From: Guyanagaster necrorhizus
Lineage: Eukaryota; Basidiomycota; Agaricomycetes; Agaricales; Physalacriaceae
Direction of reading: 5' to 3'
Assembly (NCBI RefSeq): GCF_019112545.1
Contig: NW_025064881.1
Coordinates: 842,591 to 906,590, forward strand
DNA: 64,000 nucleotides
Positions within the stretch are counted from its first letter, which is position 1. Each line of letters begins with the position of its first letter. A program made the translations under genes and the position numbers. The notes below the pieces were generated by a model that saw nothing but the letters and a program-made list of their open reading frames with translations, ran no database searches and was not told the DNA's origin. Shown one piece after another: positions 1,245 to 48,660 of the stretch.

Positions 1245-2640
1245 TCATCTAGTGAGTGCATCTGGTTTTCCACCAAGTTTTTCAGGGCAGAAACATATTA
1301 CTAGATTGAACTGGGATAGGTATTCAGACCAGCAGACTTGTCTGAGGGTTAGAATCTTAGTGGTGGCGAAGTATTCAAGATTCTTGTGGTCTGTTATGAC
1401 ATCGATAGAGTCCACAGAGCCTTCAAGGTAGTGCCACCAATGGTTAAAAGCTTCAAAAATGGCCAGGAGCTTCTTGTCATGTGTGTCATAGTTGAGCTCA
1501 GCATTGTGGAGGCTTTGGGAGTGGAACGCAATCAGGTGAATTTCACCATCTTCAAGGTAGATGAAGAGGATAGCTGCAATAGTGTAATCAGAGGCATCGG
1601 TTTTTACCACTATCTTTCGATTGGGGATCCAGTGAGTAAGAATAGGAGCATGTGTAAAGGTCTTTTTTAATTCATTGCAGGTGGCTAAGCATTTATCATC
1701 AAATTTCCATGGAGTTCTCCTATGGGTGAGTCATGTAAGAGGAATGACAATGTTGCTATATCCATGTATGAAGCAATGGTAGAAGTTGGCAAAGCCAAGG
1801 AAGGATTAGATGTTCTTAACTTTTTGTGGCACTAGTCAGTCAACAATGGCCTTGACTTTTTCTTCTGACATGCGAAGTCCTTCAGATGATAGGATGTAGT
1901 CTAGATACTCTACAGAGTCCTGGTTGAATTCACATTTGAAGCCCTTGCAGTAGAGTCCATTAGCTCTAAACCTGTGTAGGATCTCTTGAACATGTTTCTG
2001 GTGATCTTCCAGGTTGTTGGAATATATGAGAATGTCGTCGAGGTAGACCACTACTGATATGTCAAGCATGTCAGAGAATATATCATTCACAAATTGTTGG
2101 AATGCCACTGAAGCATTTGTGAGGCTAAAAGATATGATGTGCCATTCAAAGGAACCATAACGGGTCTGGAAGGCTGTTTTCCATTCATCTCCTTTAGCTA
2201 TGCAAACAAGATGGTAGGCATGCTTAAGGTCGAGCTTGGTGTAGATGTGTACAGAGTGGGTGGAGTCGAGGAGATCAGAAATGAGGGGGAGGGAGTAGTG
2301 ATCTTTCTTGGAGATTTTGTTTAGGCCATAGTAGTCAATGCAAAGTCAGAGTTCACTGGTCTTTTTCTTGACAAATAGAACTGGAGCCCTATGTGGAGAG
2401 CGGGATAAAGTAATGAACCCATTGTGCAGATTATCATCAATAAACTCTCATAGGGCCTTGAGTTCAGATTCTGAGAGAGAATAAATAGGGCCAAGTGGTG
2501 GAGATGTTCCTTCCTCAAGGTTGATTTTGAGGTCATACAGCCTGTGTTTAGGTAGCTTTTCGGAGAGGGTATCACTGAAGATATCTGCAAAATTGTGGTA
2601 CTCTACTGGCACTGATGAAAGATCTGCTGGTTCTATAGAT
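1245..2640 (-). pseudogene. Ty3/gypsy reverse transcriptase and RNase H
   Basis: RT motifs can be followed across frames: HYPLPLISDLLD, YTKLDLKHAYH (catalytic Asp) and YLDDILIYS (catalytic DD). RNase H follows with VKTDASDYTIAAIL, the LNYDTHDKKLLAI block and a terminal GGKPDALTR. The stops and frameshifts at roughly 2320, 2140, 1836 and 1610 show it is non-functional. Confidence 0.9.
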
Positions 2641-2989
2641 GCAGCTTTGGCTCCAATATTAGGTAAGGAAGGCTGCAGTGTGAACTGCTGAGTGCCTTCT
2701 TCTGCACTGGCTCAGACAAATGCAGCAGCAGATATGATGGAGATCTTTGGGTGTGCTTTCATAGTAAAAGATTCTGAGAGAGAATAGGAGTAGATGGGTT
2801 CATATGAGAATGGAGTCTGCCAGTTATCTGGAGTCAATTTAGGATGGAATGAAGCCCTAGGAGTTGGACTGATGGAGTCCAGTGGGCACAGAAGTCCTGG
2901 ATTTGAGCTGAGAGGCTTGAAGAGGGGTGGACTATTGTCCTGTAGGTATGAAAGTCTCTGAGATGCAGTAGGAGCCATGGAATTGGTTG

Positions 2990-3467
2990 GAGTGAGGTCT
3001 TAGTAACTTGAGCAGAAAATGATACTGTTCTCAGCCCAGTCAATCAGTGGATTATAGCAGGAGAGCCAGTTGTATCCTAGAACAAGATTGCAAGATGAAT
3101 CCAGAGGAGTGACATAGAAGTCGATAGGGAAGGTGTCTCTAGATGGAAAACAGATGGAGATGGTTGCGACTTGAGATATATGGCTCCTGATAGAACCATC
3201 AAATAATTGAAGTTGCACACTAGAGATGGTTTTAATGGGGATTTCATTGGCAGCTACATACTTAGTGTCAACAAAGCAGTAGCTAGAGCCAGAATCAATA
3301 AGGGCAAGAAAATGTAGGATGATACAAGTTGGGAAACCATCAGGTTTCATAGTAGTTGGTAATTCTGCTGAGAGGGGAATGTGGAAGGAGTGGTTGGAAA
3401 GGGATGTTGCATTGAGAGTGATGACCTCCGGTGTGCGAATAGAGTCAACACAACTCTGAACTCGCAT
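2990..3467 (-). pseudogene. Ty3/gypsy aspartic protease domain
   Basis: Reads [17 protein letters not shown], the retropepsin active-site block with the catalytic Asp in DSG. It ends in [18 protein letters not shown], the conserved C-terminal flap of fungal Ty3 proteases. It would cleave Gag-Pol. The open stretch is intact for 155 codons but is cut off from RT by further stops. Confidence 0.85.
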
Positions 3468-3469
3468 GG

Positions 3470-4918
3470 AGGGAACAGGGTTGCTTCCTAGTTTTTCAAC
3501 TCCATCAGGGCTGGTTCTATGGAAGCAGTGTTGACTTCTGCTGCATGACCCTTAGTGGAGACTGCTGCCTTCCACTTGTTGCAGTCCTTGGTCTTGTATT
3601 TGGCTCCACAGAACATGCAAAGGTTGTTCTGGTGCTAGCAGTCTTTTTCTTCCTGAGTAAGATGGCCATCTTTGCTTAGCTTGTTGGCATAGGGCTTAGG
3701 GGTGGTAGATTTCGGTATGGAGCTGGAGTCTGAGAAAGAAATGTTAGACCCCTTGGATTTGAGATTGAGAGATTTATTGTCCCAGTTTTCACAGGCAATT
3801 TTGGTCTTCTGGGTCCAATAGCAAGCATCAAGTTCTTGGGCAAGGAAGCACATATCATAAAGGTTGTTTGGCTTCCCATGGTATGCCATATCATCCTTGA
3901 TACAGGTGCAGAGGCCATGGTAAAAGGCATGACAGAGAGAGTTGTCTCCATACCCAATTTGTGAAGTGTACTGGTTGAATTGGACTATATACTTCATGAT
4001 CTGATCTCTATCACATATCCGAAGGTGTTTTAATGCATCTTCAGCATCTCTGATAGCATCAAAGAGGCTGAAGTTGCTATGAAGCTCATCTAGGAAAGCT
4101 GCATAGGAGAATTGCCAGGCTGGTGGATTCTGCAGATTGGGGTTAAGAATGTCTGGTTCGAACCAGTTAAGTGTGGTGCTGGCCAGAAATGAAATGGCAT
4201 AGTTAACCTTATTAGCATCTGTTGCAAATGCAGTAGGTCTGTCATTGAAGTTCAACTGAAAGGAGATGATGAAAGTCTTCAGTTTGTGAGGGTCAGAGCC
4301 ATCAAATGGTTCTGGTTCCTTGACTTTGGTGTGGATAGTGGCTGGTTTAGAGTTGTTAAGGGAAGCAGAGACTCCTCATAGCAGGTTCATGAATTCTAGG
4401 AACATGTCCTGCTGGTTTGGATTGTTACTTCCTGTGAGGCCATCAGAGCTGCCTGGGCCATTAGGACCACCTGGTCCTCCTGGTCCACCTAGAAAAGGGT
4501 TTGGTGGATTGTCACCTGGTTCCCATCAGATGGGAGTATGAGTAGAGGTGTCTTCATCTCTGCCCTCTGAGTCTAGGCTGTCTGGATCCCTGTGCATGTT
4601 GCCTAGGGATAAGGGGTTTATTGGGGGATCGGTTCAGGCACTATACATCAGGCTGGTCCATCGGACCCTATTGGTTGGAATGCTAGTGGCATCGAAAGAG
4701 TTAGAGGAGTCATCGTAATTAGGTTGGCAGGCAGTGAAGCTAAAGTGATTGTAGATTTCCCTATGGGAAGGTTGTCCTCCACTGGAGGCTGATCCGAAAA
4801 GGCCTGGTTGTTCCTTTGAGGCAGAGGCTGGAATGTCTTCCATGGAAAACATGTTTAGATGGGTAGGCTGAGTTTGTTCAGGATTGGTTTCTGTGAGTTC
4901 AGTAAATATGGTGGACAT
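3470..4918 (-). pseudogene. Ty3/gypsy Gag, broken
   Basis: Starts at the ATG at 4918. The middle (4255-3635) is a retrotransposon Gag domain with the typical helix pattern around NWFEPDI and the FDELHSNF-like region. It is followed near 3600-3640 by a degenerate zinc knuckle reading LCMFCGAKYKTKDC, in which the expected His is absent (the spacing is one residue short). Stops interrupt it between 4634 and 4255 and near 3635. Gag would form the virus-like particle; this copy cannot. Confidence 0.8.
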
Positions 4919-10447: not shown

Positions 10448-11577
10448 TTATAGGTAGTTATGATGCTCAAGAATGATGAGTACTATAGTCATAGAACATA
10501 CAATTAGTAGAGATATATTTATCTTATAGACAAACAGTATATAAGTAGCATAGCTCTTGCTGTATATCTCCAGCTTTGAGCTAAAGTTTATTCTTACCAC
10601 TTTATCTTGAGTCAACTGTTTATTGGCCTTGAAGCTTTTGATCAACAAGCATATATAAGTGAACTCTGATGCTTCTTCCCAGTCTGAGTCTGAATAAGGT
10701 ATCAGCTCATCCATAGTCCCTTCATATATGATTCCAAAGTCTAAAGTTCTCTTCAGATAGTGGAAAACTCACTTCATGGGTCTTCTGTCAGAATTTTCTC
10801 TAGCTGTACATTTGGGTCCATAGGCATTTTGACTGGTTTGCAGTCATTCATGCCCATTCACTCAAGTACTTTGAGAATATATGCCTTCTGGGATAGAGTG
10901 ATAGTGCTCTTATCCCAATTCCTGTCTATCTTTATGCCTAATATATATTGAATCTCCTTGATATCTGTGACATTTAGCTTCTTCTTAAGCTCTTCTTTTA
11001 TTTTAGATATAGTTTCATCATCTGGGGCAAGTAATGTCATGTCATCAACATGTACAGCTATGATTATGAGACCAGAACTCATTTGTCTGATGTACACACA
11101 TTGATCACTGATCAATCTGATGTATCCAAGTCCTAAAAATATAGCATTTAATTTGTCATTCCAAACTCAGCCAGATTGCTTAAGTCCATACAATGTTAAT
11201 TTGAGGTGTGCTGCTTTTCCACTCCCATCTGAATATTCAGGTGGCTGTGCCATGTAAATGGATTCATTGAGTTTACCATTTAAGTAAGCTCCAACAATGT
11301 CTATTCCATGAATGATTAGGTTTCTTTGAGCAGCAATTGCTATAAGTAGGCAGAATGTGCCCAGCCTGACAACTGGTGTATAGGTCTCAAAGAAATCAAT
11401 GCCAGATACCTGTGAAAATTCTTTTGCAACAAGTCTGATCTTGTATCTGGTGATTTTCCCATCACCATCTCTTTTCAATCTGTAAATCCACTTGCAATCC
11501 ACAAGTGATCTATCTTTGGGTAATTCTTCCAGCTGCCATATGCCTAGGGAAGTCAATAGATTGTATTCTTCATCCAT
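10448..11577 (-). pseudogene. Copia reverse transcriptase and partial RNase H
   Basis: RT begins near MDEEYNLLTSLGIWQLEELP and holds RLVAKEFSQVSGIDFFETY, then HGIDIVGAYLNGKL, then HVDDMTLLAPDD with the catalytic DD. RNase H begins at YSDSDWEE (about 10,690) and then decays. The frame breaks at about 11,160 and 10,850. Confidence 0.88.
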
Positions 11578-12333
11578 TGCTTTCTTTCAATGATGCCAGT
11601 CTGGCCTTATTTTGGCTTCTTCAAGGCTTAATGGCTCATCACTGAGGTTGTCTGCAGTTTCTCCAATGCATGCATAGTCTATTGCAATATTTATAGCTTC
11701 TAAAGATGATTCTTCTGAGGTATGCTATTGTTCCAATGTTTTCACAGCTCATACACTTGGATTATAAAGTGTCCAGTAACTCAGTTGAGTCTTTGATGCA
11801 ATCTGGACCAATTTGTTGCATGGCTTAATCACTTTTCCATGTCATATTGGGAACTTTGATTTGATCAATGACACATCAGGGGCTGTTTCCCCTTTTAGTT
11901 CAGCATTTCTGGCATCCACAGAATTATCTGAAATACCATCATTTCCATCCAGAGTCTGCTCAACTTTGCTCTCTGACTCTCCCTCGAGTGACAAAGGGTG
12001 AGAGACTACATAGTCAGTGTCTATAGGCTCTGTAGTATTGCTTTCAGAGAATATAACATTTCTTGAGGTCTGAATCTGCCTAGTTTGAGGGTTATAATAT
12101 CTCCAGGCTCTGGATTTATTTGTAAGACCTGTGAAAATGAATTTCCTTGACTTTGGGTCCAGTTTTGACCTTTTGTTATCTTGCTGCAACACTCAGCACT
12201 TTACTCCAAATTTCTGAAGTGCTGAAATATCTGATTTTGTGCCCTGAAACACTTCTTCTGAGGTTAGATCATTTTTGATAGCCCTGATTGGTGATCAGTT
12301 CTTCAGGTATGTGGCATATGCCACTGCCTCAGG

Positions 12334-13386
12334 CTATAGAAACTTCAGTAAGTGATGTTCTTCTAGCATGGCATGTGCATGCTCTACAAGAGTCTGATTT
12401 ATTCTCTCAGCAACTTCATTTTGAGATGGAGAATATACTGCAGTCAATTCCAACTGTATGCCATTGTCCTGGAGGTATTTCTTTACCTCTTCATTGACAT
12501 ATTTCTTTCCATTGTCAATCCTCATAAACTTCAGATCCTTTCCTTTGTGGACTTTAATGTATTTTTGATACTGCTGGATCTTCTTTTGAATTTCCATACC
12601 TTGCTTTGACTTCAAAAAATACAACATTGTCCTTCAGGATTTTCCATCTGTGAAGCTTATGTAATATCTTTCACCATGAATATCCTGAGTTCAGGCCAGC
12701 CTCCATAGATCTAAAAATGTCATTTTCTCTATTTCAGTATAGTCTCTTTCAGCTTTCTGTAGAAATGGCTTAGTATGATGTTTGGCTTTTATGCAAGCTA
12801 TGCAATCTGTCTGAGGCTCAGCTGACTCATCTATATCCATCCCCTTGACCATTTTCTTCCTAAATAGTCTCTTTACTGATCTCATATTTAAGTGGCCTAA
12901 TGTTTTGTGCCACTTTTGCCATGATCAGACTGATTTCATAGCATGGGCCTGGGTTATTTCTGAAATAATAATGTCAAGGCTGTACAGCTTTGATATTTTA
13001 TCTCTATAGCTGATTATCTTGCTATGTGATGAGATAATATCCATTCTGGACTCTTTGAATTTGAGTTCAAATCCAGCATCTGTAATACACTCTATTGACA
13101 TAAGATTGAATGGTGCATCAGGACAGTGGATACACTCCTTTAGTGTGACTGGAGTGATCTTTTCTCCTTCAACTATTTTAATTTTGACAGTTTCCCTTCT
13201 CAAGCCTTTGGATTTGCCTACACCAATGACTTCATATCCTGAGGTTTCAACATAGTCAGAAAAATATAATCTATTTTTGACTATATATCTGATAGTGCCA
13301 GAGTCCTCTAGCCATGATACTCCTGAGAGTGAGGTAAGTGTGATATCTGTTGCACAAAATATGCAGTCTTCTTCTTCTGAGTCCAA
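12334..13386 (-). pseudogene. Copia protease and integrase, broken
   Basis: The protease block reads WLEDSGTIRYIVKNRLYFSDY; the catalytic D-S-G is preserved and the usual HIV-like triad has become YIV. The integrase zinc region shows CIACIKAKHHTKPF, and the core shows RIDNGKKYVNEEVKKYL and YSPSQNEVAERINQTLVEHA. Stops at about 12,690 and 12,925 split it. Confidence 0.85.
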
Positions 13387-13439
13387 TTTAGTAACATGTA
13401 CCTGAGTCTGGCTCTTTCTCTTTTCTTTCTATGACTTTC

Positions 13440-29158: not shown

Positions 29159-29505
29159 TGGTGGCGGAACAGAACAAATTCAACCGTGTAGCGATGTGAA
29201 CTGAGAACCCACATTTAGCATTCTACCAATTCTCCGCATGTGATGTAGAGGCTTTCTCGGGGAAACTAGCGGGACAGACGACTGATCCCCAAGACACGTG
29301 GTAGTTGTGGGCGTCAGTAGAAGCGGGCCGGCGGTTCACGTTCCAGGAGCACGAAGCTAATCGTAAGCTCTGAAAGAGCGAACGGAAAATAGAACTGGTA
29401 CGAGCGTGAGAGAGGGACTTGAGGAGGAGTTTCAAAGAAGCAGCAAAAAGCCCGACCATCGATGTTGTGCCATCTTAACCATTTCTCCACCTGCAGAACG
29501 CATTG

Positions 29506-29886
29506 ATGACTCGTACCAAGGTCCTGTTCCAAAGAAATGGCGTTCTTGTGAAGCACTGATGAAACTTGGTTATAGATTGCACCCCCAAAGATGTCTGTTG
29601 GTCTGTTCTCAATCTGTTCTTTCAATAACGCTCTGCTTGGACGGCTAACTTGAATACTTATTGTCGTTTAGGCCGAGCTCCCCGCAGACAAGTGGAGATC
29701 AAGGCCGCTGAAAAGAACGCGGCAGTGCGTAGCTGATACGTGCTCGTATCACCGTAGTGCTGATAGTAGCCTCTATGACAGTCCGCAATCACTGGTACCA
29801 GGAAAAACGGTGCCGAAGAGCTACAGCGGAAGAGCAGTAAGGATGAGGTGGGCAGTAGTCGGGCCCCGGAGGAACGCCGGTCATAG
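29506..29886 (+). CDS. Histone H3 tail-like mini-gene (65 residues), no histone fold
   Basis: Exons 29506-29520, 29576-29600, 29672-29724 and 29782-29886. The first three are 15, 25 and 53 nt, exactly the lengths and phases of the first three exons of the H3 gene at 37480-38176, and the splice donors are alike (GTCC/GTCT, GTGCGT). The protein begins MTRTK and continues with RAPRRQ...KAAEKNAA, against MARTK and KAPRKQ...KAARKTAA in H3. Lysines 4, 9, 23 and 27 are kept; 14 and 18 are Arg, S10 is Met and R26 is Glu. The fourth exon begins SAITGTRKN and then leaves H3 and stops at 29884, so the histone fold is missing. It could be a neofunctionalised tail protein, or a pseudogene that has kept an open frame by chance. 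Nothing else is found in 29159-30472. Confidence 0.55.
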
Positions 29887-30383
29887 GCTACAGGACGCGT
29901 ATTCCTCGAGCGCCCGCCCATCAGTGATAGCAGAACAGTGAAACCTGAAAACATGTAGTTTTAAGAGTGTGCAGCTTGAAAACACTGATAAGTAATCACA
30001 CCGAAACCGATCATTCTGTCGCCCGGAGGAGCCTACAGTCTAGTGACTCACCGTCCATCAAGTTTTGGCCTGTAAGCCGATTTTAATGTTTGCTTCAGTA
30101 GTTATTTAGCATTTGAAGGTAGAAAATCGTCCAGAATCCACCAGGTCTGTGATGTTTTTGCGGCGAAGTAGTTCATATTACGGGTCTCTGCCGTCCCGGC
30201 ATGCCATAAAGGGACGGCGAAAGCCGGAAAGCACGTGAACAATACGTGAAAAAAAAAGGTTCCGCCGAGTATCCAAACCCCCAAAGACTCAGGGGCTCAT
30301 CTTGCTTGCCCCTAGCTCCTCTCCCATCGACCAACACGTCCTCCACACCTTTATTTCTCCATATTTTCGTTATTGCTCGCCAG

Positions 30384-30476
30384 GTAACGTCGTCGCAGCT
30401 CTTGTCGACGATGGAGGTAGTGCTGACTGATATTTCCAGCCGAGGCCCCTGTCAGCCCGTCCCAACAGCTCCATGA
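30384..30476 (+). promoter_or_regulatory. Leader with possible 5'-UTR intron and overlapping upstream ORF
   Basis: An upstream ORF of 21 codons starts at ATG 30411, and its TGA overlaps the main ATG as ATGA (30473-30476). A possible leader intron (GTAACG...TTTCCAG, 30384-30439) would remove that upstream ATG. Splicing could therefore switch translation of the downstream zinc-finger gene. This is inference from sequence only. Confidence 0.4.
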
Positions 30477-31712
30477 AGGTCGATACACAGAGCTTGGAAA
30501 AGGAGGTTGAAGTAGATCATAGAGCAGAGGCAGTCATCGCTGCAGAGGACGAGGTCGTCGTGTCGCGCGATGATCAGGTGCGTTTGGTGATGCCTATGGG
30601 TGGACGCCCCACTCACCAGTTACACCAGGGCAGCTCCAATGACACGAACACCACACCCGAATCGTCTGAGATTCGCGCGTCCTCGCCACCCCGCAGACCC
30701 TTGACTCGCTCGCAGACAGGTCGTCCATCGAAACGACGAGTGCTCGAGGACAACGCACTCGATCGTGACAGCTCTTCGCCGCCACCAGTGAAGAAATCTC
30801 GTACCTATCGTAAGCGCGCTGCTCAAAAGGGACAAGGCGAGGTGGCCGATGTTCCACCACCGGCCCCATCTTCCCGCGAAAACTCTACAGCCAGTTCCTC
30901 CGCGGATATACCCACTCTAAACTCGAACAGTGTTACGTTTCTGGATGGTTTAGACGACTCAAATGTGCCCTCTGAACGTCGTGGTCCCAAGTCACGCGCA
31001 AATCTACCAGTTCCTGTGCCCAATCTTACCAAGAAAAGTCGCGGGCGAAGAGTTCCCACCACTGTGGTGTTGCAGCCAGAGGATTTGAAGAAGGATAAAC
31101 GGACGTATGTCTGCTCAGTAGAAGGCTGCGGTAAGTGTTTCCATCGCGGAGAGCATCTGAAACGCCATATTCGCTCCATTCACACACACGAGAAACGTGA
31201 GGACTTGGTTCAGCTACTCATGAAAAATATTACTGACTGATTGCTTAGCTTTTAAATGTACATACCCGGATTGCGAAAAATTCTTCAATCGACATGACAA
31301 TCTCCTCCAGCACCTCAAAGTTCATACTCACAACAAGCGCCCGCTTCCCAGCGATGGCAGCGCAGACAGTCTTCTAGCCGATCCAGCTCAGAATGAGACT
31401 GAGCCGGCCGCTCTGGCTGCTTCCAAGCCATTGGCATCTTCTAGCCTCCTTGCTGCCCTCCAGCAACAGGCGTTCACACCATCCGTGGTCGCTCGGTCGT
31501 ATGCCTTGCCTTCTGAAGAACTTTTCACTAAAACGAACATGGCCGTCTCGTCTGTTCGGACGGAGATGCCCCAATCGCCTCCGCGGATGTCGATCGCACA
31601 ATCGTCGGTACGCGATGCGCCTCCGATGAATTTTCATCCATCCCAGAACGGTTCCCCACCTCTACTTTTGCCCGTCGCCACCGGACAAAACTGGCCCCCC
31701 GGCGTAGCGTAG
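30473..31712 (+). CDS. C2H2 zinc-finger transcription factor, Msn2/4-like (copy 1)
   Basis: Two exons (30473-31196, 31249-31712) give 395 residues. The N-terminal half is low-complexity and charged, with basic patches (KKSRTYRKR). Then come VPVPNLTKKSRGRR and two C2H2 fingers: C-SVEG-CGKCFHRGEHLKRHIRSIH and C-TYPD-CEKFFNRHDNLLQHLKVH. The single intron falls at the linker proline codon. The finger pair and the HTHEKP-type linker resemble the stress regulators Msn2/Msn4, which bind AGGGG-type elements. Function here is inferred. A paralogue lies at 46869-48660 with the intron in the same place. Convergent with the Zn2Cys6 gene. Confidence 0.88.
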
Positions 31713-36290: not shown

Positions 36291-38176
<1,886 letters not shown>

Positions 38177-41100
38177 TTGTGCTTGAGGTCACTAGTTGTC
38201 GATGTATATGCCGATTCTTGAGGGTAGCAACAGGGGATGCTGGTGGGCGGGAAGAGAGAAAGGTAGGAATCAAACTTCCGATGTCGTTTAGAAACCCCCA
38301 ACACAAAAGCCCCTCTTTCTCACGCTCGTGCCACCGGAAATCCAGCCGTTTGTACTCGGGCCTACGTTGGAACTTTGCTCTGATTTTTTTCTAGCGCTTC
38401 CCTGGCTCCATTTCTCCGATTTTTTGTACTCAACCTTCTAATGTACATATCAGGTACCCTTTGTGAATTTCCTGGATTTTTAGGACCCCGTCTTCGTGGT
38501 AAAGAAAGCTGCTTGAATTGGAGGCACTCTATCCTTGGAAGTTTCCATCTTGGGAACATGCACCGCCACATCATATATTTTCCATTACAATCTGTCTCTG
38601 TTCTGGCCTTGGCCTCGACTCTACGGGCGCATGTGTCCTGCGATTGGCACGGCTTCAGAAATTGCTGTCAACTGTCGGTACTTGGTCAAATGTCTCAATG
38701 GTTTCACCTTGCCTTCGACAGGCACATTGCGTGTCGATGATCGGTTCCGAATTCTCAGGCAATCAGTCGAAAAAACTGTTTTTTTCGGAAAATTGAAAGG
38801 ATTATCTTATCTATAGAGAACTTGATAATCGTTTCATTTGTCTACGAGAGACTAGCTGAATGCCGGAAGAAAAGGTACAGTTGCAAGGATCTTCGATATA
38901 CTCTGATAATGTTAGATTTTCCGGCCTTTTCTGTGCATGATTCGCATACTGGAACGACAGCCTTATTACTCAGCTGACCCACGGAACTTTTTTTTCTTCG
39001 CTCACTTAATGTTTGAGGCGCGCAACTTTCATGTTCTTCGTCTCGTAAAGATAAAAACGAGGCTCTCAAAAGAAGAACTCACATGTGGGCTTATCATGGA
39101 CGATTCTTCGCTTCGTGCTCATGACATTCTCTCGTCATGTACGAGCATGTATGCCTTGATTCCGTATCCTCCGACATCTTTTCATAATACAGTCAGTCAG
39201 ATGTGTACGTGAACGACGAGGTAAAGTGAATATTCCGGCAATTCGTTGAAGCGGATTCTTATGAAGTAATATTCACTGTGGGTTTTCACCTATTCTTGCG
39301 AAATCAGTCTATGGATTTGGACGTTGATCTTCAACGCTGAGGAATACTAAAGTGCTGATAGCGGCAGAAGAAGACAGTCTCCTAGGGTCGGGAGTGGGTC
39401 TTCTTGATATCTTTATATTTTTGGATGGGAAAGGGAGATAACGAATGTCGACACTACAACACCTGTGGCTTCGGTCTTCAATTGCCGCCGTGTACCGGAT
39501 GTCTTCTGATGCTTCTGAATCTATCAACTACCTTTATTCTTTATTGAAGACGCGTCGGTAGCGCGAACGTGTCGAATATCCACTATTTATCCGCCTTCGG
39601 AGCCCTCTTCGACAACCTTCTATCCTTCGGTTTCCACGAACGCATCATATGCAAAGGTCACAACTTACTCCGCATCCTCCTCTTACAGTAACTTTGCGAA
39701 TTCATGCCAGACTGATGTTTCTCAATTTTGGGATCAGAAAACACCGACGCCGGTTTGGTAACAATTAGTTCGCCAGTGTGGCCGAGCGGACCCTTCCCAA
39801 ACTCCTCCGATAAAATGATCATTGTTCGCTAGCGTTTCTTTGAAGGATAAACAACTGAACAATTGTTCTGTTCATCTTTCCCTCCATGGCCAGGCTGCTA
39901 AGACTGATTTGTTTTGTTTGTCGGATATACTCGGACCGATCGTTGCAAGCACGTGCGGGATCAACCGTGGCTTCAACGTTGCCGTAAGTACTGTTGCGGT
40001 CAACCACGAGTATCGCAGGAACTCGCGCTGTGACAAATGCCGTCGAACGATACTCCAGCGTGCCGCTAGCTTCTTTTGAGCTTTCGTGCTTTCCCACTGC
40101 GATACACTAGCAAAAAACGACTCTACTTTCCATGTTTTGCACATCTTCACGCTACTAGTACGCTTACGGCGTTACCCAGTCATCATCGACGCCTAAACTG
40201 AAGGGTCATGCGTATTCAACTATTTGTGAACCTGGTGAGCTAAGATTTATCGTATTGGCCATCATGGCTATCTGCGGATTTTACCCACGTTTCTGACTTC
40301 AAACACTTTTAGACTCGGACGAAGTAACATGGTCGGCTCAATGGATTCGGGGGCGACCCTCGCCGCCTTACGCTCGACATACATGCACTGTCTCTCAGCC
40401 TCAGTTGATATCAAAGTACCGGAGCAATCATCTCTTCAACACCGGTTGACGTGCTTCATGGAACTCTGAGCCTCCAACCTTTTGCAGTGATGTACTCTAC
40501 ATTCACCTGAAGAAGCTTTCCTGACATGGTCAACCTAGCCAATGCTTCTTTACTGTATGCCAAGCAGTTATGAGAAGAGATCCCTTTCGGTATGGACATC
40601 TTGATGAAGAGACCATGGTAATGGCATGGGCCGACCTTTCAATGTATCATCGATGAGACTAGGTTCGTTCTATCCTTGGACCCATTTCTTTCGCCGTCCA
40701 CGAATTATCCGCCAGGGGAAGGTTCATTCAAACGGACTGGTTCACCCGCCTTGGGTATCAATCGCCTTCCAAAGCCATCCAACAGCCCCCAGAGCATACG
40801 GATGTTCCCGCTGACTCCTTCTCCGCTGTCATAGCTAATAGTGCCTTCATTGAATGTGTTCGGCTGTACGCCCCGGAAGTTGAATGCTCGGAACATGCCC
40901 AATCCATCGTAGTCCACCTTAGAGATGTGTCTCTCCCACTATGTGGCAAAACTCATATGTGACTTATATGATTCCCTCGGGCGGGATGCTACGGACACAG
41001 TGTCTTCTCTGGGTTGCTCCGATGCGGGAAACTGTTCCGGAAGCCTGGGATATTCTCTCTAGCTCAAGGTCGATATTTTAATACCCTCCACTGTTCTCCA

Positions 41101-44100: not shown

Positions 44101-46868
44101 TTGTTTGGATTGGTCTTTATGAAACAAGAGATAACGCACTGCAAAGATGGGCGATGCTCGTGCTCCATGGCCAGCCACGAGAGGTCAAAAAAGGAAATGA
44201 ACACTAGATCAGTGTGCCACGTGTTTCTATCGTCCATAGGACATCTGTCATCCCGTCCTTGTTCTCTGAGTCTGTCTGGCCCGTCTCTGCTGATATGTTA
44301 CGAGTTCCAGAGTTCAATTATATGGAAGTTGCACAGGATTCCAATGTTTGAATCTGCACAGAGATTGTGGCGTGGCTTCTTTTGTCTTAATCCAGCTCCA
44401 AGGCGACGCATTGAATCTACCAACACTCGTCAGATTATATTATCAAGGCTGTATTTTCTCGGGTATGGAATTTCCCCGTTTCCGTTATTTTGAAACTTTG
44501 ACGTATTGCCTTCGCAGTGGAAGAAATCCCGGCTGTGTAAAACGGCCCATGCTTATGTATCTCTGATGATGTTTTCGGTGTGATAATTGTTACCGCATTC
44601 ATCTATGTGGCAGAGATATCACTGTGCTCTGCCTTTTGCTCAGTGTTAATTCATCCTGTGAGTAGGGCATCTCTTCCTGTGCGCATTTCTCGGGATCATC
44701 GGGTCCGAGGGGACTAATCGGTGTCCCCGGAACACCAAAATTACATTGCTTCCGGTCATTTGTTGTCAATCCAACTGTCTCTTTATCGCAATATTTCAAG
44801 GCAACTTTTTTTCTTCCTTTTTGACACGATTATGATAGTCAGCTCTTGACTCACATGTGCGTTGACCGAGGTAGAAACTGCGCGTATTCCTTCGGCGTCA
44901 GTTCAGGTGTCCGCTAGAAGTTCTTCCTCCGCGAACTAGACTTTTCTTACAAGTTTCCCTCTGCGGGCGTATCATACGCTATCTACATGTGGCGCAGGGT
45001 ACCTTACTAGGGACGTCATATGCTCATCGAAAATCCCCCATAGATCTTATCCTTCCCACCCACCAAACTTGTCGCGTGCCTACAAAAATGAATGTCGGCT
45101 TTGAAAAAAAAAACTGCAACACTAATTCTTGACATATGCCCCGCAATGAAACCCAAATTTAACGCACCCAGTGAGTGCCAATGTGACCTGAGGAACGTTC
45201 ACCTGAGCAGCGGGACGGAAAAAGCTTTGAAACGCGTGTTCCTTTAGGGGGCGCATCCAAATGGCAGTCGAAGTGACGATAACAATAGGGGGATTAGAGA
45301 TTTTCTGTTCCGTTTCCATAATTAAATGATCGACTCCCGAGCTGCTACTGAGCCACTACGTCCGAACTTGTTTTTCCTGAGCACCCTGAGGGTGCTGTGC
45401 TGTGCTGAGACGTGGTCTACGCGACTGAATGTGGCGTAGAATAAGAGGTATAGGTTCTCTATTGTTGTCGCCTTCGGCTGGAACTAGGCCAGTATATAAC
45501 GAAAGCGGCACGAGAGATTAACTCCGCAACGCTCATGTTGATCAATTCACTCTGCTAGTCGCATGCTGGTGGTCTTTAAGTGCAACGCCGAAGTGTCCAC
45601 CAATGGTAGACAAAGAGGAAGGCTAGAATGTACTATCAGGAGGGTCGCTATAGTAGCATAGAACGATACTGTGTACGTTGTTAAACATCCTAGGGATATG
45701 ACGAGAAATTGAATAGAAAGCGGAAGCGGAATGCAAGAGGAAATGTTCCGCTCGGCCTTTGTGAGACCTGACAAAAAAACATCCTGCTGCACCAACTGCA
45801 GTGACGACAAGTGAAGGAGGCGTTGTTCCGGGAATATAATATATATTAAGACAAACAATAGCGACGTCGACAGTAAATATCTGGCGAAATAAAAGACGGA
45901 TGGAAAACAGAGAATGATGTTTGGAGTGACGTTGGCAGGTGTTTGGGCGTTTATGTTGTGCTAAGCGGAGTAATAAATAATATAAATGAATGGGTACGGG
46001 GGGCAGTGCCGACAGATGAATATTGAATAACATAGCTTTGACGAAACGCGTCAAAAAAACAAACATACGCAGAACAGAACAGTACATTGGAGCAAGGCAC
46101 CGACATCAAAGAAGAATTTCCAAACTGGGCGCCGATGGTGAGATCATTTTGGGGGGGTGGATCGGAGGATAAATCTGCAGATCTGACCGAAAGCAGCCGT
46201 GGGAACAAATTGCTGTGGGCTGGGTCGGCTCGGAGCTCAGTTCACGATCGTGGTTGTGACAGGTGCTTCCTCAGCCTGGGATGCCCAAGATAGCAGACTG
46301 GCACCAGAAAAATGGGAATGGAATGGAGAATACGTAGGTACGTACTTGAAATAGAGTATAATAGACGAGTCGGGGAGGGCAGTGGGAGGACGCGCAAGGT
46401 AAGGGCCAATCATCCGCTGGTGAGCCCGTCTGCTTTCGATCACTTCCGTGCCAAGGTCAGCCTCAAAGGTGAGTGACTCTTGATTGGAAATAGCTATAAA
46501 ATGGGACTGAAATGCAGATTAGCATTCATTTACCCTTTCTTAATCCCAGATTCGCTCGATTCGTTCCTGTTCCCTTCGATTTTGGTCCTGTTTCTGGCGA
46601 GCCCGTCATACGAGGGGCTCGAAAACTCGCCATAATTGACGCAAAGGACATAAACGTCGAGAGCGCGCGCGTTGCCCTCAATTTAATCCGATTTTCCCGC
46701 AATTTTCCAACAATTTTGGCTATTCTGGGCTTATTCCGATTATTGCGTTTATTTCTGGGATTATCGAGATTGCCGACTTTTGAGTTTATTTTTCTCTTTA
46801 TATTCTTGTTATATTGCCTTGGAATGGGACTTTTCCGTCCCCTGCAAGGTCTTCCGTTGCCCTCTCAG
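38177..46868. other. Long gene-poor stretch (about 8.7 kb)
   Basis: No supported gene. CpG content looks normal, unlike the transposon block. Features seen: a purine-only tract (about 43,903-43,948), A-runs at 38,052, 43,530 and 45,105, and one protein-like minus frame at 41,078-41,335 (PYDLRAEVPAKVGIAECVID) without splice or family support. The right end must hold the promoter of the zinc-finger gene at 46,869. Confidence 0.5.
46495..46501 (+). promoter_or_regulatory. TATA box
   Basis: TATAAAA sits about 370 bp upstream of the chosen start of the zinc-finger gene. Transcription would start near 46,525-46,540, which would exclude the upstream in-frame ATG at 46512 from the mRNA and leave a leader of about 330 nt. 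Confidence 0.5.
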
Positions 46869-48660
46869 ATGTCCTCCCCGGTCAGCCCTACCAGCCCTAC
46901 ATTTACCAACTTCTCTGCTCCTTCCCCATACTCTTCTGCCTCGTCCGTCGACGACACCCCGTTTGACACCGTGCCCAACGACCGCGACCGCGACTCTGCC
47001 GTTGTGCAGACCATGTCTTCTTACTCTTCGTACCCTTCCAACTCCCAGCAGCCTGTCTACCAGAATCAGAACGACCTCGTCTATCCCGACCAGGACCAGT
47101 ACTACCCGTCGACGTCAATGATGATGCAATGGACACCGCCCGTCGCGAAAAAGCAGCAGGGCATGCAAGGCCAGTACCATTCTCAGCAGCAACAGATGCC
47201 GGCACAGCAGCTGTCCATCTTCATTCCCAACGGCCAGCAGCAACAGCACGCGCCGGTCATTCACTCGCCTGTGCCCCATCACCACAGCCAACAGGGTCGC
47301 CAATCGCAGCAGAGCCCACATCATCTACTCGACATTGATCTGGATGAATGGCATTCCCAACAGCAGCAGCACCAGTACTCGCACGCCCAGTCGCATTCAC
47401 TGGCCATGGCACAGGTCCACCCGAGCCACTCATACCCGCGGGTCAAGCAGGAGGACGTCTCTGTGCTCTATCCTTTGAATGGGAACGGTACGTACGGACA
47501 TGGTCAGCAGCAACAGCAGCAGACTTCATCCCATTCCCAAGGGCATATATTCGATCTCTCGACGCCCCACCAGCTGCAGGCGCTGCAGGCTCAGCATTCC
47601 CCCTCATACAACGACCTCCTCGACCCGTACTACTCGTCGCAAGGCCCGCATTCTGCCATGGTACTGCACGAGCGCTTCGTGCATCCCTCGGAGCTCTCCC
47701 CTGCCGACTCACCCGTCTCGCCGCTCGAATTTCCTCCGCGGCCCGACGAAACCGCGGACCCTGCGCAGGGTCAGACACCACAACAACAGATGGCTGTCGG
47801 CTGCGATCCGCGCTACGTCTCGGGAGAGCTCGGCGCGGTCAATGCAGGGAAGGATGACGCGCATGAAGAGGATGCAGAGGGGGATGACGATGTCGACGCA
47901 GAGGGCGAAGACGAGTACGACGATAAGGAAGGTGCCGGCGTTAAGGACGATGACGCGTATGAGGATGACGAAGCCTACGACGATGCTGACTACGACGACG
48001 ACAGGGATGGAGAGTACGTACTACGTCGAGGAAGACGCATGTCCGGCGGTTCTTCGAACCGAAACCTACGTACACGCACGGGCACAGAGCGGTATAACCC
48101 GTACCAATATACCTCCCCGTCTCCTTCGGCCTATCCAGAACCCCCAAGCCAGATAGGCATCAGCACGCGTTCGAGACGCACTACTTCAAATGATTCCTCA
48201 CTTGCTTCGACGGCATCGTCGTTAGACTATGCCCTTCCCTCTCATCGTCGCAGGCCTCGTCCCGCGACGAACCTCCCCGTACCCATTCCAGTGCCCAATC
48301 TCACTAAAAAGTCTCGGGGACGGCGTGTGCCCACCGTTACATCGCTGGACGACAGTCCACGACGCGATGGTGACGGAGACTTCTCTGTGGCCACTGGGAA
48401 GGGTGCTAGGGTCCATCTATGCCAGGTTCCTGGTTGTGGAAAGTGTTTCGCCCGAGGCGAACACTTGAAGAGGCATGTCCGTAGCATCCATACATATGAG
48501 AAACGCGAGTCTTCTTTCATATCTTCTTTTTGGTGATTTGGGCTGACTTGTTGCATTTCTTCCAGCGCATAAATGTCCGTACCCTGGCTGTGGAAAGGAT
48601 TTTAGTCGCCACGATAATCTCGGTCAACATATGCGGGTTCATAAGGATTATCGGGGTTAA
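46869..48660 (+). CDS. C2H2 zinc-finger transcription factor, Msn2/4-like (copy 2)
   Basis: Two exons (46869-48504, 48566-48660), 576 residues. A Gln/His-rich N-terminal half (runs of CAG codons) is followed by an acidic Asp/Glu block (about 47,850-48,010), then VPVPNLTKKSRGRRVPT. The two fingers are C-QVPG-CGKCFARGEHLKRHVRSIH and C-PYPG-CGKDFSRHDNLGQHMRVH, and the stop comes 6 residues later. The intron sits at the same linker codon as in copy 1, but its donor is GC (AAAC|GCGAGT). Continuing without splicing stops within about 10 codons and loses finger 2. Start chosen at MSSPVSP; the frame is open upstream to 46512 but lies beside the TATA box. Glutamine-rich and acidic parts suggest an activator (inference). 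Confidence 0.88.

Follow-up and report, generated by a model that had tools for sequence, protein, structure and literature searches.

Proteins that imitate histone tails are known from several settings: EZHIP, G9a and influenza NS1 are histone mimics, in which short motifs sit in otherwise unrelated proteins, and protamines are thought to derive from histone H1. To our knowledge, duplicates of histone genes normally remain histones or die. Here we describe a locus in the wood-rotting fungus Guyanagaster necrorhizus that pairs an H3-like N-terminal tail with a new C-terminus, and that is very probably a real, old and functional gene.

The window analysed here is a stretch of 64,000 nucleotides of contig NW_025064881.1. 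On its plus strand, four exons (29506-29886), which we refer to as the tail gene, join into an open frame of 65 amino acids, MTRTKIAPPKMSVGRAPRRQVEIKAAEKNAASAITGTRKNGAEELQRKSSKDEVGSSRAPEERRS. Exon 1 (29506-29520, 15 nt) encodes MTRTK where H3 has MARTK; exon 2 (29576-29600, 25 nt) encodes IAPPKMSV+G, corresponding to QTARKSTG+G in H3; exon 3 (29672-29724, 53 nt) encodes GRAPRRQVEIKAAEKNAA with a split G codon; and exon 4 (29782-29886, 105 nt including the stop) supplies the new C-terminus, SAITGTRKNGAEELQRKSSKDEVGSSRAPEERRS. The three introns, of 55 nt (29521-29575, GTCCTG..TATAG), 71 nt (29601-29671, GTCTGT..TTTAG) and 57 nt (29725-29781, GTGCGT..GACAG), all begin with GT and end with AG. The branch-site consensus is CTRAY, and one candidate site per intron was picked out by eye: CTGAT at 29556-29560, CTAAC at 29645-29649 and CTGAT at 29760-29764. 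An upstream ORF of 14 codons (29462-29506, plus strand) ends in a TGA that overlaps the A of the tail-gene ATG.

The putative sister copy is a canonical histone H3 gene of six exons and 137 aa on the opposite strand (37480-38176, minus), the two start codons lying 8.7 kb apart. The first-pass annotation had claimed that the first three exons share their lengths and phases with canonical H3, which agrees with the H3 exons as read here (38176-38162, 15 nt; 38096-38072, 25 nt; 38015-37963, 53 nt; minus strand), and it was right that K4, K9, K23 and K27 are kept while K14R, K18R, S10M and R26E are changes. Its statement that all four exons stay open at roughly half identity over the tail also holds, as the 65-codon frame is intact and codons 1-31 encode residues identical to those of the window's H3 at 16 of 31 positions, in register. 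This ungapped match to the H3 N-terminal tail scores 72, against a maximum of 45 among 20,000 shuffles; in local alignment against H3 the score is 87, which none of 20,000 shuffled tails reached (mean 31, maximum 64). DNA alone is weaker evidence of the relationship than protein, because under two of the four scoring schemes a shuffle outscores the real alignment. One scheme gives a colinear alignment from 29396, 110 bases upstream of the gene, through the three introns (score 62.1; 300 shuffles, mean 37.2, s.d. 4.7, maximum 57.2), and the other three give a shorter best alignment, with observed scores and bests of 200 shuffles of 19.5 and 21.0, 33.0 and 38.0, and 24.5 and 24.4. In exon 2, just 10 of the 25 bases match H3.

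Beyond the tail the resemblance ends. Exon 4 had been said to start H3-like and then turn into unrelated sequence; the second half of that description stands, and the first is weak, with 10 of 14 bases matching and no significant similarity on its own (p 0.12-0.87). The last 34 residues contain no recognizable H3, and no remnant of H3 exons 4-6 rose above shuffles in 29782-30100 or 29750-31400. The idea that exon 4 is H3 in a shifted frame following a deletion was unsupported in every frame. Searches of this protein and its two relatives, described below, gave no histone fold (PF00125) and no other Pfam family at E values up to 10.

The tail gene appears, with good support from the sequence, to have arisen by duplication of the H3 gene in this window, losing the fold and gaining a new C-terminus, because the two have in common an upstream element, the intron after codon 5 and the first 31 codons. 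The element, TGGTACGAGCGTGAG plus flank, occupies 29396-29420 (plus strand), starting 110 bases before the tail-gene ATG, and its match in the H3 promoter occupies 38307-38333 (minus strand), starting 157 bases before the H3 ATG. Its 15-base portion TGGYACGAGCGTGAG occurs at exactly two sites in the 53.3-Mb genome, one before each of these genes; the reversed pattern, used as a control, occurs at none, and by a 4^15 reckoning about 0.2 sites would be expected by chance. The genome encodes further canonical H3 copies at C4:460k, C6:1004k, C18:633k and C18:648k. These four were rejected as the source, since they lack the codon-5 intron (as seen in sequence for C4, C6 and one C18 copy, and from an unbroken tblastn segment for the second C18 copy) and since none carries, in the 600 bases upstream, the 11-mer ACGAGCGTGAG of that element, even with one mismatch allowed. 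A genome-wide search for a second copy of the tail gene gave none, except for a chance-level match at G000:C3:1666083-1666220 (E 6.9, 36% identity).

Other H3-related sequences in the same genome are worth recording. An H3 with a divergent tail, named CENP-A-like by eye, lies at G000:C6:615.5-616.1 kb (L051). A degenerate H3-like sequence, MACTKNCAIKSTGGKS..., at G000:C18:628.42-628.96 kb (L049:3421-3960) keeps much of the fold and has an in-frame TAA; across 38 fold codons it matches four H3 copies compared with it at 30-32, 36 and 13-19 of first, second and third positions, respectively. An H3-H4 pair also occurs twice in opposite orientation, at C18:633 kb and 648 kb (L049, L050), with identical tblastn segments, apparently through a recent inverted duplication.

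A hunt for the same 65-residue ORF in relatives, by protein search with the tail peptide, yielded two proteins out of three candidates. One, P0001, is ARMOST_17092, an uncharacterized protein of 88 aa from Armillaria ostoyae that is identical at 52 of 65 residues (80%); the other, P0002, of 87 aa and with the source label 'lgn', carries the same peptide. Both contain MTRTKIATPKLP(I)GRAPRRQVEIKTAQKNAASAITSTRKSAAEELQRKSGENEVGSS(R/Q)APEERRT. Searching with an alignment of the three sequences, across annotated proteins within length limits that full H3 proteins exceed, returned only these two again among 185 candidates. All three splice junctions predicted for the tail gene are contiguous in both proteins, with P0002 one residue shorter at the exon 2/3 join. 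Exon by exon, identity to A. ostoyae is 5/5, 4/8, 16/18 and 27/34, so that the new C-terminal part (27/34) is conserved to the same degree as the H3-derived part (25/31), and the C-terminal end falls at the same place. A leader of 23 additional residues precedes MTRTK in the annotated A. ostoyae protein; it is out of frame in Guyanagaster and, if used, would bury the free N-terminus. In A. ostoyae, the leader corresponding to the upstream-ORF region (29462-29506) shares the reading frame of the tail ORF. If 'lgn' is read as Logan, whose proteins are Prodigal calls on assembled contigs (PMC12424806), the P0002 contig would represent either spliced RNA or a retrocopy, since Prodigal cannot skip introns. 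The contiguity of P0002 is thus suggestive, not proof, of a spliced transcript, and a retrocopy in Armillaria is conceivable. The first-pass view that no gene like this has been described therefore needs amending, as databases already hold the A. ostoyae relative under the label of an uncharacterized protein; no description of such a gene appears among the literature matches listed, in the portions available, and as far as these show, the gene is undescribed as a histone derivative.

Among the armillarioid lineages Guyanagaster diverged first, and the common ancestor of the clade dates to ~51 Ma (PMC5264464). We ran neutral-drift simulations of the 65-codon frame, without indels, counting as success a frame that stayed open and kept 52 or more identities. 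Success fell from 76% at 0.05 substitutions per site to 40% at 0.1, 6% at 0.15 and 0.4% at 0.2, and was 0/3,000 at each of 0.3, 0.4 and 0.5, these divergences being assumed values. Two rough guides place neutral divergence to Armillaria at or above 0.3. The 87% ITS identity reported between two Guyanagaster species separated by ~8 Ma (PMC5264464) scales to 0.9 over 51 Ma, and the 5' leader, read as codons in the one frame matching the Armillaria leader, is identical at 8 of 15 positions over its best stretch, about what drift would give at 0.3, its frame being broken before the ATG here.

A neighbouring gene offers a further yardstick. Downstream of the tail gene lies a C2H2 zinc-finger gene (30473-31712, plus strand; exons 30473-31196 and 31249 on), whose protein as modelled is 96% identical to BT62DRAFT_959770 of G. 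necrorhizus. It is 79-81% identical to proteins of A. mellea, A. fumosa and A. luteobubalina and 75-77% identical to those of two Desarmillaria species, in a comparison whose rows do not name A. ostoyae and include one Armillaria row of eight members. As the identity of the tail peptide is about that of this neighbour, itself a normal gene, the peptide's evolution looks like that of an ordinary protein under constraint. Elsewhere in the window, a second C2H2 ORF (46500-48536, plus strand) and the one just described flank the H3 gene and have in common the motif NLPVP...PNLTKKSRGRRVPT, making them possible paralogues by sequence. Remnants of two retrotransposons, one Ty3-type (Ty3_capsid and RVT_1) and one Ty1/copia-type (RVT_2 and Pol_BBD), lie at 1836-4375 and 11167-13428, respectively, both on the minus strand. 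An upstream minus-strand gene had the look of a pectinase; two pieces of it gave no Pfam match, and we do not claim that identity.

Across 31 codons, first, second and third positions of the tail gene match H3 at 22, 21 and 10 sites, respectively, a bias that tested against H3 alone gives a Fisher p of 0.0009. We set this test aside as proof of constraint, because silent changes in H3 itself inflate the third-position differences, and instead simulated both branches, again without indels. The observed codon pattern arose in at most 0.95% of runs, and in at most 0.53% with no stop. When the ATG and all splice dinucleotides also had to be kept, 0/4,000 runs succeeded at each of eight divergences, a figure that flatters the case, since splice sites and match were what the exons had been picked for. 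We consider it highly likely that the gene encodes a protein and is constrained, and we strongly infer a protein of ~65 residues that is older than the armillarioid radiation (~51 Ma) and has been under purifying selection since.

In all three sequences, the H3 residues R2, T3, K4, K9, G13, A15-P16-R17, Q19, K23, A25, K27 and A29-A30 are retained, and K4, K9, R14, R17, R18, K23 and K27 are invariant. The changes relative to H3 that are fixed in all three include K14R, K18R and an N at position 28; R8, S10 and R26 are lost, and with them the ARKS motifs around both K9 and K27. Of the H3 reader and writer motif ARTK, RTK at 2-4 is kept and A1 has become T1. The calculated pI of the whole product is 10.9, with residues 1-39 at 11.9 and residues 40-65 at 6.4. 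AlphaFold2, run from two sequences, predicts a single helix over ORF residues 18-51 (P0001 41-74) at a mean pLDDT of 66.7 and a pTM of 0.31, a low-confidence model that suggests nothing specific.

We favour, at a probability of roughly 0.45, the reading that the product is a stand-alone nuclear mimic of the H3 tail that works through H3-tail-like binding. H3 is imported via its tail by importins, and its K14 and K18 are acetylated by Gcn5-type enzymes. Because no histone fold remains, the product presumably cannot enter nucleosomes; its H3-like basic N-terminus could drive nuclear import, and once in the nucleus it would be a free-standing tail. There it might occupy binders of the H3 N-terminus (R2-T3-K4) or of the G13-K27 stretch, with importins, chaperones, and acetyltransferase or deacetylase complexes as candidate partners, its own positions 14 and 18 being closed to acetylation. 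Co-expression with H3 is plausible, given that the upstream element has been kept. Given the binding rules for WDR5-type recognition of A1, the change of A1 to T, together with the loss of ARKS and the changes at S10 and position 28, argues against mimicry of the K9 and K27 methylation sites and against WDR5-type binding. The earlier suggestion of a tail decoy or signalling peptide is thereby weakened in part, both ARKS motifs having gone in all three sequences, and the pattern of kept and lost residues would be better explained by a nuclear protein with the import and general binding behaviour of an H3 tail than by a decoy for K9/K27 methylation.

The same losses also suit a conserved protein whose job is no longer tied to the H3 tail, such as a small basic, partly helical nuclear protein, or another partner-binding protein, that only began as an H3 copy, a reading that we regard as quite possible if short of an even chance. 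It would account for an exon 2 that is nearly unrecognizable (10/25 bases), for the loss of both ARKS motifs, for a new C-terminus conserved as much as the tail part, and for a predicted long helix, of low confidence, that spans the boundary between H3-derived and new sequence. Set against it, several modification-site lysines and the framework GxAPRxQ...K.A.K.AA have been kept in all three sequences. That the transcript itself is what counts, as a leader or first cistron for the zinc-finger gene that lies 0.6 kb downstream, seems very unlikely to us. The longest P0002 contig, at 2,545 bases, exceeds what 65 codons need and could reach the neighbour, and the upstream ORF overlaps the tail ATG, whereas protein conservation is even along the ORF and the leader is only 8/15 identical and out of frame here.

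Decay remains to be weighed. The first-pass annotation had proposed either selection on the peptide or a recent pseudogene, and of these the former is supported by the intact frame and 80% identity in Armillaria. A decaying pseudogene left open by chance is improbable: it would explain the lost fold, the change of about half the tail residues and the return of no G. necrorhizus protein in the peptide search, and drift would suffice if neutral divergence to Armillaria were only ~0.1 per site, but the frame, junctions and end are conserved across ~51 Ma, and the neutral simulations, at assumed divergences, give no sign of the loss of coding constraint that marks H3 pseudogenes. A chance assembly of H3-like exons has a negligible probability. 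In its favour are the near-random identity of exon 2 and the DNA alignment, which a shuffle outscored under two of the four schemes, yet 0/20,000 protein shuffles matched the observed score, the upstream element is unique to the two genes, and the independently found Armillaria protein aligns with H3 residues 1-32 in 59 of the 60 PDB matches listed (E 0.069 to 5.4 each; the top match, E 0.032, is the unrelated protein CpcN).

A stronger form of the mimic reading can be put forward, which we hold to be doubtful: a tail-only histone, born from H3 and kept for >50 million years, that is soluble, is co-expressed with histones and competes with the H3 tail while not being acetylatable at positions 14 and 18, so that in armillarioid fungi it tunes the import, chaperoning or acetylation of H3. 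An H3 copy that lost its fold and lived on as a short tail protein would mean that selection can act on a gene product consisting of the tail alone, and the gene would provide a natural, genetically separable competitor with which to probe the role of the free tail in the cell.

The tail gene shares with canonical H3 (37480-38176) its 15/25/53 exon lengths, phases, codon-5 intron and upstream element and 16/31 tail residues, and differs in its missing fold, K14R and K18R, lost ARKS motifs and unrelated C-terminus. With ARMOST_17092 it has in common a 65-residue protein (52/65) ending at the same place, the 23 annotated N-terminal residues being the difference. Like EZHIP, G9a and influenza NS1, it presents H3-tail-like sequence outside a histone, but theirs are short motifs in unrelated proteins, whereas the tail gene descends from an H3 gene. 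H3 variants and CENP-A also descend from H3 duplicates and, unlike the tail gene, retain the histone fold. Protamines, with their proposed origin from H1, would likewise represent a histone copy that kept a basic tail and lost the folded part, although their ancestor would be H1 rather than H3, and they pack sperm DNA and are strongly basic and fast evolving.
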